The position numbers were made by a program, and so were the translations under genes. From Polynucleobacter sp. UK-Gri1-W3 (lineage in GTDB: Bacteria > Pseudomonadota > Gammaproteobacteria > Burkholderiales > Burkholderiaceae): a DNA stretch of 64,000 nucleotides. The notes below the pieces were generated by a model that worked only from the letters and a program-made list of their open reading frames with translations, had not been told where the DNA came from and did no database searches. The DNA lies in the NCBI RefSeq assembly GCF_018881595.1, contig NZ_JACVQA010000008.1:352061-416060 (forward strand), in the 5' to 3' direction. Shown here piece by piece: positions 16,176-25,809 of the stretch (position 1 is the first letter of the stretch; the number at the start of each line of letters is the position of its first letter).

Positions 16176-16733
16176 ATGACAATTAGCTTTCTCCATGATC
16201 ACAATATCCCTGTTATTGATCTGTTTCAGAATGCGGATTTACCCAGCTTGTACACGCTCTTTTCCGAGATCAACACGGATATGGGAAATAGCCAAATCTG
16301 GATCGTATTGATATTAGCCTGTCTAATGCTCACTTTTCATGGTGTGGCAGTTCTGATGATTGCTAGTGCATTTCATGGGCTGGATAAGAAACTAGAAAAT
16401 AAGCGTATCTATGGTGCTAATTTTCTGTCGTATTTCATCGCTATTCTATTGATCATTGCCACTCACTTTATTGAGATCATTGCCTGGGCCTATATTTGCG
16501 TAGCCTTAAAGGTATTTGCCACCAACCCGCAGACCTTTTACTTTGCTGGCGAGATGTACACAACTGTGGGATATGGGGATTACACGCTTTCAGAGCGCTG
16601 GAGAATTCTGCCAATCATCATCTCATTCTCAGGGATCTTTGCTGTATCCATGTCTGGTGCAGCTCTTTACTCAATGATGGGCGCTTTACTAAATCGACCA
16701 ATTCAGAACCCAAAATCAGGATCTGGCTTTTAG
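16176..16733 (+). CDS. Potassium-channel-like (ion channel family) membrane protein
   Basis: A 185-residue membrane protein with three predicted helices (about residues 42-68, 88-114 and 145-168) and a re-entrant pore segment FYFAGEMYTTVGYGDYTLSERWR. This contains a textbook K+ selectivity filter TVGYGD. The order helix-helix-pore-helix fits a small Ion_trans_2-type channel with one extra N-terminal helix; as usual it would need to form a tetramer. No cytosolic RCK/TrkA domain is fused. The cytosine-rich gap just before the ATG has no Shine-Dalgarno sequence. It ends 2 nt from the convergent DUF3108 gene. Confidence 0.87.
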   Translation: MTISFLHDHNIPVIDLFQNADLPSLYTLFSEINTDMGNSQIWIVLILACLMLTFHGVAVLMIASAFHGLDKKLENKRIYGANFLSYFIAILLIIATHFIEIIAWAYICVALKVFATNPQTFYFAGEMYTTVGYGDYTLSERWRILPIIISFSGIFAVSMSGAALYSMMGALLNRPIQNPKSGSGF

Positions 16734-20691: not shown

Positions 20692-20852
20692 TTCAAATCC
20701 TTATAAACAGAATCAGGCGTTACATTGGGAACGATGATCTTAACAAAAGTTATCTAATTAAGCCTCGCTATTAAAAATCAGGGCAATAGACCATTTACGC
20801 CCCTAAAAGTAGGCTAAGATTGGATCTAGTAGCTTTTTATATAAGGAAAATA

Positions 20853-21458
20853 ATGAAAACAAAATATGCCCCAATTGCCTTGGTTATTACAGCCCTATTT
20901 GCGGGATCTTCCGCAGCCATTGCCCAATCAATGCCATCGTCAAGCACAGCTAAGCCAGCAGTGATCGATGCTGCCGTCACCGATAATCGTTATCAGCTTT
21001 ATGAAGGTGAAGTAGTCAAGATTGACAAAAAGACTCGCACCATTACCTTTAAGAATAAAGAGGGTGAATCTAAATTTGTTGCAGGTCCTGATATCACTAA
21101 CTTTGCCCAAATCAAAAAAGGCGATCGCGTAAATGTAAATTACGAGCTAGCCGTAGCTATCGAACTCATTAAGACCAAGAGTGATGGTGTTCGCTCTAAG
21201 GTGGAGACCAACACAGTAACCAAATCCAAGGCGGATGAGAAGCCATCTGAATCGATTACAAACAAGACAACCATTGTTGCCGACATTGTGGAAGTTAATC
21301 GTGAAAAGAAATTGGTTTCTGTTAAGGGTCCAAGCGGGAAGATCACTACAGTGACTGTGAAGAACCCTGCTCTTTTGGCAGATATCAACGTAGGTGAGCA
21401 AGTTAAAGTGATTTACTATGACGCTATGGCTGCATCCATCACCACCCCTAAGAAGTAA
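20853..21458 (+). CDS. Exported protein of unknown function with two tandem homologous domains
   Basis: A 201-residue protein with a signal peptide (cleavage near residue 25, AAIAQ). I do not recognise the family. Residues 50-105 and 141-196 look like copies of one beta-rich unit: each starts with a VxxI/VxxV-[DN]-[KR]-x-[KT] strand, runs through a K-x-V/F-x-V-x-x-P-x-I/L core, and ends with a [GK]-[DE]-x-V-x-V-x-Y-x-x-A/M pattern. A Lys/Ser/Thr-rich linker joins them. The ATG at 20853 is chosen over an open frame from 20820, because AAGGA lies five bases upstream and it directly starts the signal peptide. Periplasmic location is inferred. Confidence 0.8.
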   Translation: MKTKYAPIALVITALFAGSSAAIAQSMPSSSTAKPAVIDAAVTDNRYQLYEGEVVKIDKKTRTITFKNKEGESKFVAGPDITNFAQIKKGDRVNVNYELAVAIELIKTKSDGVRSKVETNTVTKSKADEKPSESITNKTTIVADIVEVNREKKLVSVKGPSGKITTVTVKNPALLADINVGEQVKVIYYDAMAASITTPKK

Positions 21459-21466
21459 GTCATAAA

Positions 21467-21826
21467 TTGATACAGCTATTACTGGGCATTCAGGCGGCTA
21501 TTTCGGCGCTGTACTATTTAACTGCACCTTTCCCCCTGAGTGTGCCGGTAATTGTATTTTGGCTTCTCAATACTTTCAGCATCCTCTTATTGCTGAAAAA
21601 CTACAGCGGATTAGTTGGGCAGCTTTCGTCAAATTTAAAACGTTATCGACTCGTATTTACCGCAACCCTAATCATTTCCGAAATTATTATTAATGTCACC
21701 GCCGAAAACTACCAGGTGGATAACCTACATGGTTTAATTAGCGACACTGAGGTGCTATTCACCGGAATGACGCTTGGGGTCCTGTGGCACTACGAAATTA
21801 CCAACAAATTCAAGAAACCGTTTTAA
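21467..21826 (+). CDS. Small hydrophobic membrane protein, unknown
   Basis: A 119-residue protein with three to four predicted membrane helices (about residues 2-20, 24-46, 62-82 and 92-112) and no recognised domain. The only reasonable start is TTG at 21467, 8 nt after the preceding gene's stop, with no clear ribosome site, so translation may depend on the upstream gene. Its stop codon and that of the convergent ketoacyl synthase share the bases TTAA (21823-21826). It could be an accessory of either neighbour. Confidence 0.6.
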   Translation: MIQLLLGIQAAISALYYLTAPFPLSVPVIVFWLLNTFSILLLLKNYSGLVGQLSSNLKRYRLVFTATLIISEIIINVTAENYQVDNLHGLISDTEVLFTGMTLGVLWHYEITNKFKKPF

Positions 21827-23079
21827 GTTTTTCGCAGCTTTGATATTAGGATGCTTGCATTAGAGCCTCCAAACGCAAATGAATTACTCATTGCAAGAGG
21901 AATATTTAAGTCGATCGACTTAAGTGGAAGGTAGTTAAGATTGCATTCCGGATCTGCAATGTCTAAAAAAGCAGTCCCTGGAGCAATATTGTTCTGCAAT
22001 GCCTGAAACGTAATAACCAGCTCTAATGCGCCCGCCGCACCTAAAGTATGGCCATGAATTGCTTTGGTGGAGCTGATAGCAGTCTTTTGTGCGGCATCTA
22101 GTCCGAATGCAGATTTAATGGAGTTTGTCTCTGAAATATCGCCTACGCCTGTAGCAGTTCCGTGAGCGTTAATGTAAGCAATATCCAATGCATTAACTTC
22201 TGCCTCCGCCATAGCGGCTTTCATGGCTTTGGCCTGGCCTACTGAGTCTGGTCTGGTAATGTGAATCGCATCAGTGGTTGCGCCATACCCAACGATTTCA
22301 CCAAGAATGGTTGCCCCTCTATTAAGCGCGCTGTCTAGTGACTCTAAAACTAGGGCAGCCGCACCCTCACCTAGAACAAAGCCACTCCGATTTTTTGAAA
22401 AGGGTTTGCAGGAGCCGGCAATATTTTCTGGGTCAGGCGTTGCAAGAGTCCGTAAAGCCTCCCATGCTTTAATGGGTCCGGCATTAAAAAGGCTTTCAGA
22501 TCCGCCGGCAATCGCCCTATCGCAAATCCCATACTTAATACTTCTAAATGCTTCTCCAATAGCGTGACTTGAGGATGCACATGCAGTCGAATAGGTTAAG
22601 GATGGGCCTCTAAAGCAGGTTTGCATCGACAACAATCCAGCCGATCCGTTAGCCATTACACCAATAACAGTAAATGGACGAACGCGCTGCTTATCATTCT
22701 GATAGATTTCTTGATAGGCGCCATCAAGGGTGTTGGAGCCGCCAAAACCTGTTCCCCAGAAAATACCGCTCTTATCTAGATCATCCTCACTTAGATTTCC
22801 TAGGCCCGACTGTTGTAGCGCCTCTTTTGCCACAAGCCATGCCAGATGGGCGGTTCTATCGAACAAGCCCAGAGAGGTTGCATCCAGATCAAAATCCAGC
22901 CTTTCTTTAATGGCAGAAGCGCAAGGGAGATCAACAGGGATAGCAGTTGGTGAAATGAAGCTTGATATGCCGGATTTGCATTCAATAGCTTTCTGAAATT
23001 GAACGCCGGCACCTACTCCAAGTCCTGAAACGGCGCCTAGGCCAGTTACAACGACTCTTCTAATGTCATTCCCGCTCAA
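21823..23079 (-). CDS. Beta-ketoacyl-ACP synthase (FabF-like)
   Basis: A 418-residue thiolase-fold condensing enzyme. The full Cys-His-His triad is present: STACASSSHAIGEAF (Cys), YINAHGTATGVGDISETNSIK (His) and ISSTKAIHGHTLGAAGALELV (His), with the terminal FGGSNAS. It condenses an acyl chain with malonyl-ACP. The gene overlaps its own dedicated acyl carrier protein gene by four bases, and a DUF4118-like membrane protein precedes both. The normal fab cluster is not here, so this is likely a secondary or specialised system and not housekeeping fatty acid synthesis. Confidence 0.93.
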   Translation of the reverse strand: MSGNDIRRVVVTGLGAVSGLGVGAGVQFQKAIECKSGISSFISPTAIPVDLPCASAIKERLDFDLDATSLGLFDRTAHLAWLVAKEALQQSGLGNLSEDDLDKSGIFWGTGFGGSNTLDGAYQEIYQNDKQRVRPFTVIGVMANGSAGLLSMQTCFRGPSLTYSTACASSSHAIGEAFRSIKYGICDRAIAGGSESLFNAGPIKAWEALRTLATPDPENIAGSCKPFSKNRSGFVLGEGAAALVLESLDSALNRGATILGEIVGYGATTDAIHITRPDSVGQAKAMKAAMAEAEVNALDIAYINAHGTATGVGDISETNSIKSAFGLDAAQKTAISSTKAIHGHTLGAAGALELVITFQALQNNIAPGTAFLDIADPECNLNYLPLKSIDLNIPLAMSNSFAFGGSNASILISKLRKT

Positions 23080-23312
23080 TGAGTTGGCTTCGCAGTATCA
23101 AGCAAAGCGGCAACCTCCGCCAAGGTATCTACTTTCGCATCCTCATTGGGTATGCGTACATCAAAGTGGTCCTCTAGATCAAAAATGAGTTCAATCTTTC
23201 CAAGGGAATCAACGCCAAGACTTTCTAGGGTGGTGTCCGGACCCAACTCTTCAATTTTTTTATCAAACTTTTGAGAAACCAGTTCCATAAGCGTATTAAG
23301 GGTGTTTGACAT
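23076..23312 (-). CDS. Acyl carrier protein, paralogue dedicated to the adjacent ketoacyl synthase
   Basis: A 78-residue four-helix carrier protein. The phosphopantetheine attachment site is the Ser in LESLGVDSLGKIELIFDLEDHFDVRIP (a GVDSLGK variant of the usual DSL motif). The protein is acidic, as expected. Its ATG overlaps the stop of the membrane-protein gene (TAATG), and its stop overlaps the synthase start (ATGA). These overlaps indicate one translationally coupled operon of three genes. Confidence 0.93.
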   Translation of the reverse strand: MSNTLNTLMELVSQKFDKKIEELGPDTTLESLGVDSLGKIELIFDLEDHFDVRIPNEDAKVDTLAEVAALLDTAKPTH

Positions 23313-23761
23313 TATTGCTTTCTCTTTAATTCCTGCAAAAGCTGATTATCTCTATGAAGCAATGTTAGGTAGCGTGATTCCGATACCAGCAGTAATAGCT
23401 TGGTCTTGTAACGCTGTCTTTGTAAAATTTCAATAAAGAAAATAGCGACGCCACCAAATAAAAGATTAATTACGAATCTTTCCGCTTCTTCTGGTGTCAG
23501 GGAAAAAACCCCAAAGGGAGGTACAAAATACAAATTGGCGTAAATACTTGAGACTAGGATATAAATGCTTGCTGTTATATAACCAAAAAAGTAGGCCAGT
23601 ACAGTAGCGGCAAAAAAATAAAACTTATAAGGATGGGCGCCATAAAAATTAGAGCCCATCACATGCATCCACGCGCTAATGATCACAAAGGAGGAGAAAG
23701 CCCAAATCAGCGCCTCAAGTGCGCTGTGAGATGACCAATTATTGGCATTTTTGATAATCAT
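23312..23761 (-). CDS. DUF4118-like (KdpD-type) four-helix membrane protein without a kinase
   Basis: A 149-residue protein with about four membrane helices followed by a charged coiled-coil-like tail (LQRQRYKTKLLLLVSESRYLTLLHRDNQLLQELKRKQ). The loop ANLYFVPPFGVFSLTPEEAERFVINLLFGG resembles the NFFFxPPxxTFxxxxxxD motif of the DUF4118 sensor domain in KdpD-type histidine kinases. No kinase or receiver domain is fused, and none is nearby. It is the first gene of the operon with the acyl carrier protein and ketoacyl synthase, divergent from a lipase gene by 38 bp. Similarity is by eye only. Confidence 0.6.
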   Translation of the reverse strand: MIIKNANNWSSHSALEALIWAFSSFVIISAWMHVMGSNFYGAHPYKFYFFAATVLAYFFGYITASIYILVSSIYANLYFVPPFGVFSLTPEEAERFVINLLFGGVAIFFIEILQRQRYKTKLLLLVSESRYLTLLHRDNQLLQELKRKQ

Positions 23762-23785
23762 GACTAGCTTTGTCTCTAATGGGTC

Positions 23786-23795
23786 TAAAATTATG
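23786..23795. promoter_or_regulatory. Divergent -10 candidates between lipase and KAS/ACP operons
   Basis: TAAAAT (23786-23791, plus) ends eight bases before the lipase ATG at 23800. CATAAT on the minus strand (23790-23795) lies 28 bases before the membrane-protein ATG. Both operons thus appear to be read from one 38-bp gap. Confidence 0.4.
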
Positions 23796-23799
23796 AGTT

Positions 23800-24669
23800 A
23801 TGAATGACCTTGCACATAATGATAATAGCAGCCCGTTGATTGTACTATTCCATGGTCTTTCCTCATCTCCTATGGAGTTCAATTTCCTAGCCTCCCAGCT
23901 TACCGCAGCAGGCTATAGGGTAAATACCCCAACTATTCCAGGGTATACCTTTGGCGACAAGGCGAGTAGTTGGAAGTTTTGGCTTAGCGAAGCAATCAAG
24001 CATATAGAAGGATTGCAGAAAACTGAATCCAAGCCAATATCCCTGGGCGGAATTTCCCTGGGGTCCACATTGGCTCTGGCTGTTGCATCAGAGCTCAATG
24101 ATATTTTGGGTGTAATGGCCCTCTCAACCACTCTGAAATACAACGGCTGGGCCGTTCCCTGGTATCGACACCTCATTCCGTTGGGAATGATGCTTGGGTT
24201 GGGTGATCGCTTCAAATATAAGGAGCGAGATCCCTTTGGCATTAAAAATCCGCAAATTCGAGCTTACATTAAAAGAGTGCTTTCGAGCCAAGAGCTGTCA
24301 GCCGTTGGTGGTTCGTATATGTCTTTGAGACATATGCATGAGGGCAATAAGCTTTGTAAACATACGATTGAAAATCTTTCGCAAGTTGGCTCCTCCATAT
24401 TAACAATTCATGCAATTGATGATGAAATTGCCAATGTACTGAATCCGCAAATGGTTGGAGATCTATCAAGCGCAACACTATTGAGGCAGGTATTCCTGGG
24501 AAACAGTTATCACATGATTACCGTTGATAATGAGAGGGAGACTGTTGCGGCGGAAGCTCAAAATTTTCTGGATTTAATCTATGGAAAAATTAAACCCATA
24601 CCAGAAGAAGAGAAAATTGTGGCCCCTGAATTACAGCGTTTTTTGAGAAATCTCAACAGAATTGATTAA
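23800..24669 (+). CDS. Alpha/beta-hydrolase, carboxylesterase/monoacylglycerol lipase type
   Basis: A 289-residue serine hydrolase. The oxyanion segment is VLFHGLSSSPMEFNFLASQL, the nucleophile elbow GGISLGSTLALAVA (Ser in GISLGS), the acid in IHAIDDEIANVLN and the His in LGNSYHMITVD. This matches the Est30/EstL carboxylesterase and monoacylglycerol lipase group. It has no signal peptide, so it should act in the cytosol on acyl esters. It is divergent from the KAS/ACP operon and followed 53 nt later by a fatty-acid hydroxylase gene, which supports a lipid-related cluster. Confidence 0.87.
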   Translation: MNDLAHNDNSSPLIVLFHGLSSSPMEFNFLASQLTAAGYRVNTPTIPGYTFGDKASSWKFWLSEAIKHIEGLQKTESKPISLGGISLGSTLALAVASELNDILGVMALSTTLKYNGWAVPWYRHLIPLGMMLGLGDRFKYKERDPFGIKNPQIRAYIKRVLSSQELSAVGGSYMSLRHMHEGNKLCKHTIENLSQVGSSILTIHAIDDEIANVLNPQMVGDLSSATLLRQVFLGNSYHMITVDNERETVAAEAQNFLDLIYGKIKPIPEEEKIVAPELQRFLRNLNRID

Positions 24670-24722
24670 ATTAGCATCGTTGAGCCCAATCACGCAGGGC
24701 TCAGGCATTTAGGAGACTTGAA

Positions 24723-25457
24723 GTGGATTCATTCATTCCCTACTTACTCTCCCCCCTAGTCCTGCTTGCGCTCAGTATATGGGAGCGTAAATACCCCCTA
24801 TATGCATATGAAGCAGATAGTGCTTGGCGTATACGCCTTCTGATTTATGCGATTCTTGGTATAGCTGCCACAGCCCTTGTTGGCCTTTTAGTTGAGCCCT
24901 ACCTACACGATATAAGTCCATTTACTCGAATCTCAGAATCATTGAATGCCAGACCTAGCTGGCTAAGTGGGTTTTACGCCTATCTACTGATCACTTTTTT
25001 TGTCTACTGGTGGCATCGCTATCGACACTACAACCATTTTGCATGGAAAGTATTTCATCAAATCCATCACAGCACTTATCGCCTCCAGGCCTTCACGGCT
25101 TTTTATGCTCACCCCTCTGACTTTATTGCCAATGTATTAATCATTAGCTTGGTGAGCTATGGAATACTGGGTTTGAATATTGAAGCCGCCTCTTGGGCTA
25201 CTTTGTGGGTTGCAGTGTTTGAATATTGGGAGCATACAAACATCCGCACGCCTCATTGGTTGGGATATTTTGTAGTCCGCCCTGAAATGCATCGCATTCA
25301 TCACGAGCGCAAACAACATCGCAATAACTATGGCTTACCGATCTGGGATATGGTGTTTGGTACCTATGAGAATTCCAGCCGACCAGTGAAATGTGGTTTT
25401 GATTTAAGCCAAGAAAAGAAGGTTGCAGAAATGCTTGCTTGCAAACAAGTTGAATAA
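24723..25457 (+). CDS. Sterol desaturase/fatty-acid hydroxylase superfamily protein
   Basis: A 244-residue integral membrane di-iron enzyme with about five helices. The histidine boxes are present in order: WWHRYRHYNHFAWKVFHQIHHS and EMHRIHHERKQHRNNYGLPIWDMVFGTYE. These are the HX3-4H, HX2-3HH and C-terminal HX2HH clusters that bind two irons and hydroxylate or desaturate lipid chains with O2. The start is GTG, with AGGAG seven bases upstream, which makes it one of the few clearly Shine-Dalgarno-led genes here. It is followed by a strong terminator. Confidence 0.9.
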   Translation: MDSFIPYLLSPLVLLALSIWERKYPLYAYEADSAWRIRLLIYAILGIAATALVGLLVEPYLHDISPFTRISESLNARPSWLSGFYAYLLITFFVYWWHRYRHYNHFAWKVFHQIHHSTYRLQAFTAFYAHPSDFIANVLIISLVSYGILGLNIEAASWATLWVAVFEYWEHTNIRTPHWLGYFVVRPEMHRIHHERKQHRNNYGLPIWDMVFGTYENSSRPVKCGFDLSQEKKVAEMLACKQVE

Positions 25458-25493: not shown

Positions 25494-25570
25494 TGGCGGA
25501 ACGGACGGGACTCGAACCCGCGACCCTCGGCGTGACAGGCCGATATTCTAACCAACTGAACTACCGCTCC
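25494..25570 (-). tRNA. tRNA-Asp (GTC)
   Basis: A 77-nt cloverleaf on the minus strand from GGAGCGG to an encoded CCA. The anticodon loop reads CCTGTCACG with anticodon GTC, and the T-arm is GTTCGAGTC. It is the last gene of a three-tRNA group, ahead of the intrinsic terminator. Confidence 0.97.
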
Positions 25571-25622
25571 AAATACATCGCGTAACGCAACATCATACAT
25601 CTTTACTGCAACCAGAAGAATC

Positions 25623-25698
25623 TGGCGTCCCCAGGGGGATTCGAACCCCCGTACTCACCGTGAAAGGGTGATGTCCTAGGCCTCTAGACGATGGGGAC
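25623..25698 (-). tRNA. tRNA-Glu (TTC)
   Basis: A 76-nt cloverleaf from GTCCCCA to an encoded CCA. The anticodon stem-loop CACCCTTTCACGGTG gives anticodon TTC, and the T-arm is GGTTCGAATCC. Confidence 0.97.
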
Positions 25699-25733
25699 CT
25701 GGACTAAAACTAACTACTATTGTTTTAAATGCT

Positions 25734-25809
<76 letters not shown>

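Follow-up and report, generated by a model that had tools for sequence, protein, structure and literature searches.

Why should a membrane protein with a sensor-type domain and no kinase be encoded in overlap with an acyl carrier protein (ACP) and a ketoacyl-ACP synthase (KAS)? The question is raised by a 64,000-nucleotide stretch of the genome of Polynucleobacter sp. UK-Gri1-W3 (contig NZ_JACVQA010000008.1, positions 352,061 to 416,060), hereafter the window, for which a first-pass annotation had described three such genes on the minus strand at 21823-23761. All three were found at that place, and the cassette to which they belong is a real, conserved and unusual arrangement. Two parts of the earlier picture have to be given up. 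The unit is not the trio and comprises at least the DUF4118 membrane protein, an alpha/beta-hydrolase (ABH) that had been overlooked 38 bp away, the ACP, the KAS and a fatty-acid hydroxylase family membrane protein (FAH). Moreover, the DUF4118 protein, which had been taken as chiefly a partner of the elongation pair, has the divergent ABH as its steady companion, and the partners of the elongation pair are the ACP and, often, a member of the same ABH family.

Gene content and conservation of the cassette

The minus-strand series begins with the gene of the DUF4118 protein (23312-23761; 149 residues), in which the domain at residues 24-118 is followed by a conserved charged helical tail and no kinase is present. 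It shares one base (TAATG) with the gene of the dedicated ACP (23076-23312; 78 residues), whose identity as an ACP is borne out by a DSL motif and a PF00550 match of 47.9 bits, and the ACP gene in turn shares four bases with the KAS gene (21823-23079; 418 residues). Overlaps of one and four bases had been proposed, with the junctions TAATG and ATGA; both lengths and the first junction hold, and the second junction has to be corrected to TTGA, the KAS starting with TTG. Across a gap of 38 bp (23762-23799) lie, divergently on the plus strand, the ABH gene (23800-24669; 289 residues, proposed triad S86, D208 and H238, YNGW motif) and, 53 bp downstream of it, the start of the FAH gene (24723-25457; 244 residues), which matches PF04116 with 88.7 bits and has the histidine motifs HRYRH, HQIHH and HRIHH. 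A conserved hydrophobic protein of 119 residues (21467-21826, plus strand), for which neither Pfam nor NCBIfam gave a family match above cut-off, is encoded convergently with the KAS. As had been anticipated, neither a ketoreductase nor a dehydratase is encoded among the cassette genes.

We call this arrangement, DUF4118-ACP-KAS with divergent ABH-FAH and the convergent 119-residue gene, type A. It was found in 11 of 151 Polynucleobacter genomes, the window's included, so that the trio does recur in other genomes as supposed. One of these loci (G124) is cut by a contig end that leaves only the DUF4118 end visible; the ten complete loci all hold the same six genes, FAH and the 119-residue gene among them, and the latter was seen as well in the partial locus L066. 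The KAS triad, C167, H306 and H344, is complete as claimed and invariant in nine type A proteins. Measured from longest-frame starts, the DUF4118/ACP overlap is one base in six complete loci and eight bases in four; ACP and KAS overlap by four bases in five loci and by 17 in one, and are one base apart in four; and the DUF4118-ABH gap is 34-38 bp in six, whereas in the other four the two starts range from a separation of 8 bp to an overlap of 41 bp. The 119-residue gene overlaps the end of the KAS gene by four bases in the window and in 8 of the 10 loci. Values of dN/dS (YN00), obtained for 14 of 24 gene-pair comparisons, were below 0.35 throughout: between the window and L037 they were 0.04-0.15 for DUF4118, ACP, KAS, ABH and FAH and 0.28 for the 119-residue protein, and between L043 and L044 they were 0.07-0.34. 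Like the recurrence within the genus, these values mark the arrangement as no product of chance. The least conserved type A parts are the DUF4118 and 119-residue proteins, with 44-46% identity when the two type A groups are compared, where the KAS retains 65-66%. A scan for promoters and terminators returned five and three sites, not above the level of shuffled sequence. A role in anti-phage defence was considered and rejected, PADLOC having found nothing in five cassette proteins.

The elongation pair and the housekeeping synthases

One explanation of the pair would be a redundant housekeeping copy, that is, a spare FabF with AcpP and an accidental neighbour. The window proteins share the fold families PF00109/PF02801 and PF00550, and thus the superfamilies, as well as the catalytic triad with FabF and AcpP, and the KAS comes close to the cut-off of the broad KAS II subfamily PRK07314 (NF005589), with 385.3 against 387 bits. 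We nevertheless regard this explanation as highly improbable, and it was rejected on the equivalog cut-off, the tree and the active-site motif, despite that near-match and the passing score of one type A KAS (L041). On contig C2 the genome has a housekeeping fabF apart from the cassette, accompanied by an ACP of its own, and the window KAS is 38% identical to this FabF. Against the FabF equivalog TIGR03150 (cut-off 493.75) the window KAS scores 399.8 bits, compared with 648.0 for the FabF of the same genome and 650.9 for that of E. coli; it is missed as well by NodE (432.6) and by L170 (492.8), an order-level KAS. The window ACP, with 40.9 bits, is below the housekeeping ACP cut-off of TIGR00517 (70.45). 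A tree of 59 KAS sequences, in which only three come from fatty acid synthesis and the bootstrap was not fully settled, splits FabF/FabB (three rows) from the other 56 with a support of 100/99, and places the type A KAS in one group (100/100) whose nearest neighbours are weakly supported (81/88). The active-site motif of the window KAS is STKAIHGH. HGH occurs in 42 of 42 order-level KAS loci and TGH in 18 of 18 FabF loci; the former were opened among 79 non-window genomes matching at E<=1e-100 (399 searched) and were chosen non-randomly, for spread over families, and in all 42 an ACP adjoins the KAS on the same strand. The pair differs from FabF/AcpP, then, in scores below the equivalog cut-offs, in active-site motif and in neighbours, which agrees with the dedicated pair of the first-pass annotation.

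The distribution within the genus points the same way. A DUF4118 protein match was found in 52 of the 151 genomes and a KAS at E<=1e-110 in 13, namely the 11 of type A together with G106 and G127, so that among the 140 genomes lacking type A such a KAS is absent from 138, the exceptions being the G106 remnant and the G127 cluster described below. None of the 41 other DUF4118-positive genomes had a KAS at this cut-off, below which weaker relatives are possible. Many of these carry what we call type C, Polynucleobacter loci with a diverged DUF4118/ABH pair in which ACP-KAS is absent; when six such genomes (G004, G007, G011, G016, G088 and G132) were searched to 1e-50, each gave one KAS at about 1e-92, which has the TGH motif of FabF and adjoins an ACP.

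At the positions of F133 and F202 of E. coli FabF, in a numbering that we assume and anchored on Cys163, Thr and Trp are present in type A KAS and in NodE. F112 of the window KAS stands at the place of FabF I108, a residue that restricts chain length; Phe is found there in 9 of 9 aligned type A proteins and in one of two NodE, and since M, L, I or F stands there in relatives, F112 can be read only as a hint on chain length.

Ralstonia solanacearum exemplifies dispensable dedicated ACPs in a relative: only one of its five ACPs is reported to serve fatty acid synthesis, two others are able to act in polyketide-type synthesis, and a strain without four ACPs grows normally, with weakened virulence on tomato (PMC9542644). 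Separately, a KAS relative (44%) with an overlapping ACP gene was observed on plasmid pSBC2-3 of Caballeronia sp. SBC2 (L068), where the two adjoin a KAS III-like protein, a methyltransferase and an FAD-dependent oxidoreductase in what looks like a small biosynthetic cluster.

Association with the alpha/beta-hydrolase

The ABH matches PF12146 (Hydrolase_4) with 34.9 bits (cut-off 27), and its nearest solved relatives are of the LipS, monoacylglycerol lipase and Est30 types. With the last two it has in common the Hydrolase_4 family and a lipase-type triad; it differs from them in the YDGW/YNGW motif, in the genetic link to ACP-KAS, and in that the nucleophile is Cys instead of Ser in 18 of 26 relatives from KAS loci. 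D208 and H238 are invariant in the aligned set, and S86 is replaced by Cys alone. An AlphaFold model made with a two-sequence alignment was too poor to use (pLDDT 35.3).

Among the 42 order-level KAS loci an ABH was recognised in 27, with a profile built from ABHs that included those from KAS loci; in 21 of them it is encoded on the same strand, no more than about 0.7 kb away, and these 21 represent 11 families according to the tree labels. The usual order is ABH, ACP, KAS, the genes overlapping or lying a short distance apart. DUF4118 was present in 2 of the 42, and no ABH was found in the 18 FabF loci, which extend only about 1.5 kb either side. The window corresponds to this order-level type, but its ABH is divergent and DUF4118 stands between ABH and ACP. 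Viewed from the membrane protein, the ABH is the steady companion. All 22 type C loci opened have an ABH (one recognised only with a wider query set), and outside the genus the 15 best-scoring DUF4118 loci opened had an ABH within about 1.5 kb in 12 cases and a KAS in 2; longer stretches from 17 non-genus loci, whose genomes overlap with that set, gave 14 and 2. Left out of the 15 were weak order-level loci (L102-L120, E of 1.9e-6 to 5.9e-4, frames of 370-1180 residues), one of which, L103, looks like KdpD. The DUF4118 profile matched 138 of 398 Burkholderiaceae genomes, in 10 of 25 genera (Polynucleobacter included), and 31 of the 399 order-level genomes, with the weak matches falling mostly in long, KdpD-sized open frames. 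At the class level, an ABH search at E<=1e-45 returned 3 of 274 genomes, one of them the window's own, and neither ACP nor KAS was recognised within the loci of about 3.8 kb from the other two.

A midpoint-rooted ABH tree placed all DUF4118-linked members (9 from type A, 20 from type C, 12 further ones and the two from G608 and G770) on one side of a branch supported at 98/99. In G608 and G770, which belong to another family, ACP-KAS, DUF4118 and ABH stand together in two further gene orders. The nucleophile is Ser in 40 of 41 aligned DUF4118-linked ABHs (Cys in L137), and Cys in 18 and Ser in 8 of the 26 aligned ABHs from KAS loci; the eight with Ser come from G608, from G770 and from six loci whose neighbours are of the aminotransferase or HAD cluster. 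PHA synthase and other enzymes that transfer acyl groups are known to have Cys at this place, and its presence may hint at transfer over simple hydrolysis in the order-level operon, a hint by analogy that does not extend to the Ser enzyme of the window. The Cys-type proteins (L170-L176, L178, L179, L183, L185, L186, L188, L192, L193, L198, L204 and L209) mostly have the motif GLCIG or GLCMG. MipA/OmpV-like outer-membrane proteins were also noticed near ABH/DUF4118 genes in L040, L049, L050, L054, L062, L122 and L131, the first tested by Pfam (PF06629, 79 bits) and the others judged by eye.

It is conceivable, if rather doubtful in our estimate, that two modules simply share one locus and its regulation. 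DUF4118-ABH would then be an envelope lipase pair with sensing, acting on phospholipid or monoacylglycerol, and ACP-KAS-FAH would independently make or repair an acyl chain. Such a division fits the frequency of DUF4118-ABH without ACP-KAS, the closeness of the ABH to monoacylglycerol lipases, the MipA/OmpV-like proteins near several loci and the PAS domain of two DUF4118 relatives. It does not account well for the members of this ABH family, in most cases with Cys as nucleophile, that lie beside ACP-KAS on the same strand in 11 families, nor for the presence of ACP-KAS in two separate lineages of the DUF4118-linked ABH group, type A and G608/G770.

The membrane domain without a kinase

The relation to DUF4118 that had been proposed was confirmed by a PF13493 match of 32.4 bits over residues 24-118 (gathering cut-off 28.4) and by a PDB search with a profile of eight type A proteins, in which the KdpD membrane domain (2ksf, E=5e-4) was the sole match at E<=0.1. 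Likeness to KdpD is limited to the PF13493 domain: the N-terminal KdpD part, the USP part and the kinase part are all missing from the 149-residue protein, which does not belong to the KdpD-type sensor kinases and has DUF4118 as its sole family match, in accordance with its first description as a sensor-type membrane protein without kinase. A KdpD remnant with a broken kinase was also considered and set aside, as none was seen and the gene is delimited by a start and a stop codon of its own. DUF4118 is mentioned as a component of a kinase architecture in one publication (PMC10663231). A search of named genome contigs with the protein returned two loci, both of Polynucleobacter, at 100% and 83% identity.

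Given this domain, the protein could be a true signal receiver, the shortened descendant of a DUF4118-PAS protein, which would sense the membrane or an acyl product and exert feedback on the ABH or the KAS. The match to the KdpD membrane domain speaks for it, and so does PAS_3 following DUF4118 in L121 and L122 (G608/G770; 45.3 and 50.2 bits, cut-off 25.6). On the other hand, two further long DUF4118 proteins, L128 and L130, gave no PAS match in Pfam, the Polynucleobacter proteins of 149 residues lack the extra PAS-bearing part, the cassette encodes no kinase, cyclase or regulator, and the DUF4118 protein is among the least conserved of the type A parts. On these grounds we consider a receiver function unlikely.

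A proposed acyl pathway

The closest comparison for the elongation pair is with NodFE. In the rhizobial records the pair is annotated only as 'ACP' and 'KAS' among nod genes, and we take these two to be NodF and NodE. NodFE uses enzymes of primary fatty acid synthesis, and NodE makes the special acyl chains of Nod factors. Both systems have an adjacent dedicated ACP and KAS; no ketoreductase or dehydratase of its own was seen in the 7-kb stretch of L210, and L212 has a MaoC-family dehydratase about 3.4 kb away. The window KAS shares with NodE the W and T at the F202 and F133 places and a His preceding the catalytic GH/AH (HGH in the window, HAH in NodE), residues that are widespread in the order-level KAS subfamily. 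In contrast, NodE groups with the KAS of Xanthomonas sacchari (100/98) and type A elsewhere, no nod genes occur among the window's annotated neighbours, and the window pair is accompanied by ABH, DUF4118 and FAH. The comparison is thus one of working principle, type A lying outside the NodE group of the tree. The FAH belongs with the ornithine-lipid hydroxylase OlsE to the FA_hydroxylase family and scores 46.6 bits against a cut-off of 475 for the equivalog NF052566. A literature search of narrow scope, weak as evidence of absence, found no description of this system in titles or abstract openings.

From gene content, conservation, catalytic motifs, co-occurrence and the divergence from FabF, we infer the reaction steps that follow, the contact of ABH with DUF4118, and the product. 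The cassette would encode a NodFE-like, membrane-associated side branch of fatty acid synthesis, a reading to which we assign roughly even chances. An acyl primer from primary metabolism would be loaded onto the dedicated ACP, and the NodE-like KAS, as its intact Cys-His-His triad suggests, would condense the ACP-bound primer with malonyl units. Any reduction and dehydration of the keto group would be left to the ordinary enzymes of the cell, since the cassette encodes none for these steps. Because ABHs so often adjoin ACP-KAS across the order, the ABH here may remove the chain from the ACP thioester by hydrolysis or by handing it over to an acceptor. The kinase-less DUF4118 protein, which accompanies the ABH even where ACP-KAS is lacking, may hold or gate it at the inner membrane, and the FAH may hydroxylate the acyl chain or its carrier lipid. 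The product would be a special, probably hydroxylated acyl group.

If this holds, one more dedicated ACP-KAS side branch would join a short list, and DUF4118 would gain a partner other than a histidine kinase. A culturable test case would also be available, for related species differ at the same genomic slot (type A, diverged DUF4118/ABH, remnants or nothing), and with such differences comparative lipidomics alone could reveal the product. A wider hypothesis, which we put forward only tentatively and think more apt to be wrong than right, is that Burkholderiales have an undescribed ABH-ACP-KAS acyl-transfer module. Here the lipase-fold enzyme, often with a Cys nucleophile, would be the acyl-ACP transferase of a NodFE-like pair, the kinase-less DUF4118(-PAS) protein would be a membrane receptor directly controlling it, and the swapping of module versions at the tRNA-side slot would make the envelope lipids differ between close Polynucleobacter species.

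Several observations weigh against the NodFE-like side branch. The closest solved relatives of the ABH are ester lipases, not thioesterases. The ABH was unrecognised in 15 of the 42 KAS-ACP loci, some of them on short contigs, and in L177 a different protein takes its usual place, so that it is not obligatory. Most DUF4118-ABH pairs come without ACP-KAS, which implies another acyl source or another role for the ABH there; 3 of the 15 non-genus DUF4118 loci have no ABH nearby; and in G023 (L031/L080) the ABH next to a type C DUF4118 is divided between two open frames and may be broken. The FAH, whose gene lies 53 bp downstream of the ABH, is only a candidate partner, from co-occurrence. The AlphaFold model of the DUF4118 protein, from a two-sequence alignment, has a mean pLDDT of 62.7, too poor for topology. 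Lastly, the window KAS is less than 2 bits short of PRK07314, and L041 (395.8), L121 (406.0), NodE (420.3) and L170 (494.2) pass it, so that this KAS is set apart from FabF at the level of equivalog, motif and tree and not at that of superfamily.

Variable content of a fixed genomic slot

The cassette occupies a slot (window 21467-25457) bordered on one side by the genes of tRNA-Asp, tRNA-Glu and tRNA-Ala (25494-25809, minus strand) and gltX, and on the other by a conserved protein (20820-21458, plus strand) with a weak, below-threshold similarity to CusF_Ec. The tRNA row Ala-Glu-Asp was found at the slot border in 11 of 12 loci scanned; L036 has tRNA Glu and Asp, with a Gly gene elsewhere. 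Close relatives carry in this slot type A, at least two diverged kinds of DUF4118/ABH, decayed type A, other genes or nothing. The flanks of G007 (L048), for instance, are 94% (gltX), 93% (glxR) and 87% (hyi) identical to those of the window, whereas its ABH and DUF4118 are only 38% and 32% identical and ACP-KAS is absent; G004 (L053) has another variant, with gltX at 94%, ABH at 36% and DUF4118 at 25%. Type A itself occurs in a more distant species (L038; gltX and glxR both 88%) and in a still more distant one (L041; yqiA and hyi 75%). A mixed locus, L060 (G011), combines type C DUF4118/ABH with FAH and the 119-residue gene, without ACP-KAS.

Decay is visible as well. The slot of G106 contains a broken KAS together with pieces of ACP and a DUF4118 scrap, and G421 has a decayed type A with five stops in DUF4118 and fragments of KAS, ABH and FAH, where the ACP frame and the 119-residue gene are still open. 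Among the 99 DUF4118-negative genomes of the genus, 16 were opened: L274 (G024; gltX 94%) and L275 (G053; gltX 92%) have an empty slot with the flank protein directly beside the tRNAs/gltX, L276 has a single protein of 152 residues, and the remaining ones have other genes in the slot or have lost the flank. No recombination repeats were found flanking the cassette at the slot, and its GC content is nothing unusual. The cassette therefore does not track the relatedness of the species, and the simplest reading would be that it is exchanged, or repeatedly lost, at one fixed site.

Other observations

The KAS of G127 (L257) belongs to a different setting, with ABH-ACP-KAS beside two SMR-like transporters, a class III aminotransferase-like protein and a HAD-like protein, names that were given by likeness to annotated Xanthomonas sacchari plasmid genes; the assembly is fragmented (170 contigs, 3% contamination), so that contamination is possible. 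The same cluster, with a wider-group ABH, ACP and KAS, occurs in L181, L182 and L211, the last from the X. sacchari plasmid, whose annotation supplied the names of the partners (SMR/EamA-type transporters, class III aminotransferase and HAD phosphatase). Elsewhere in the window, at 16176-16733, a membrane protein of 185 residues bears the stretch TVGYGD, which we take to resemble the selectivity filter of potassium channels.

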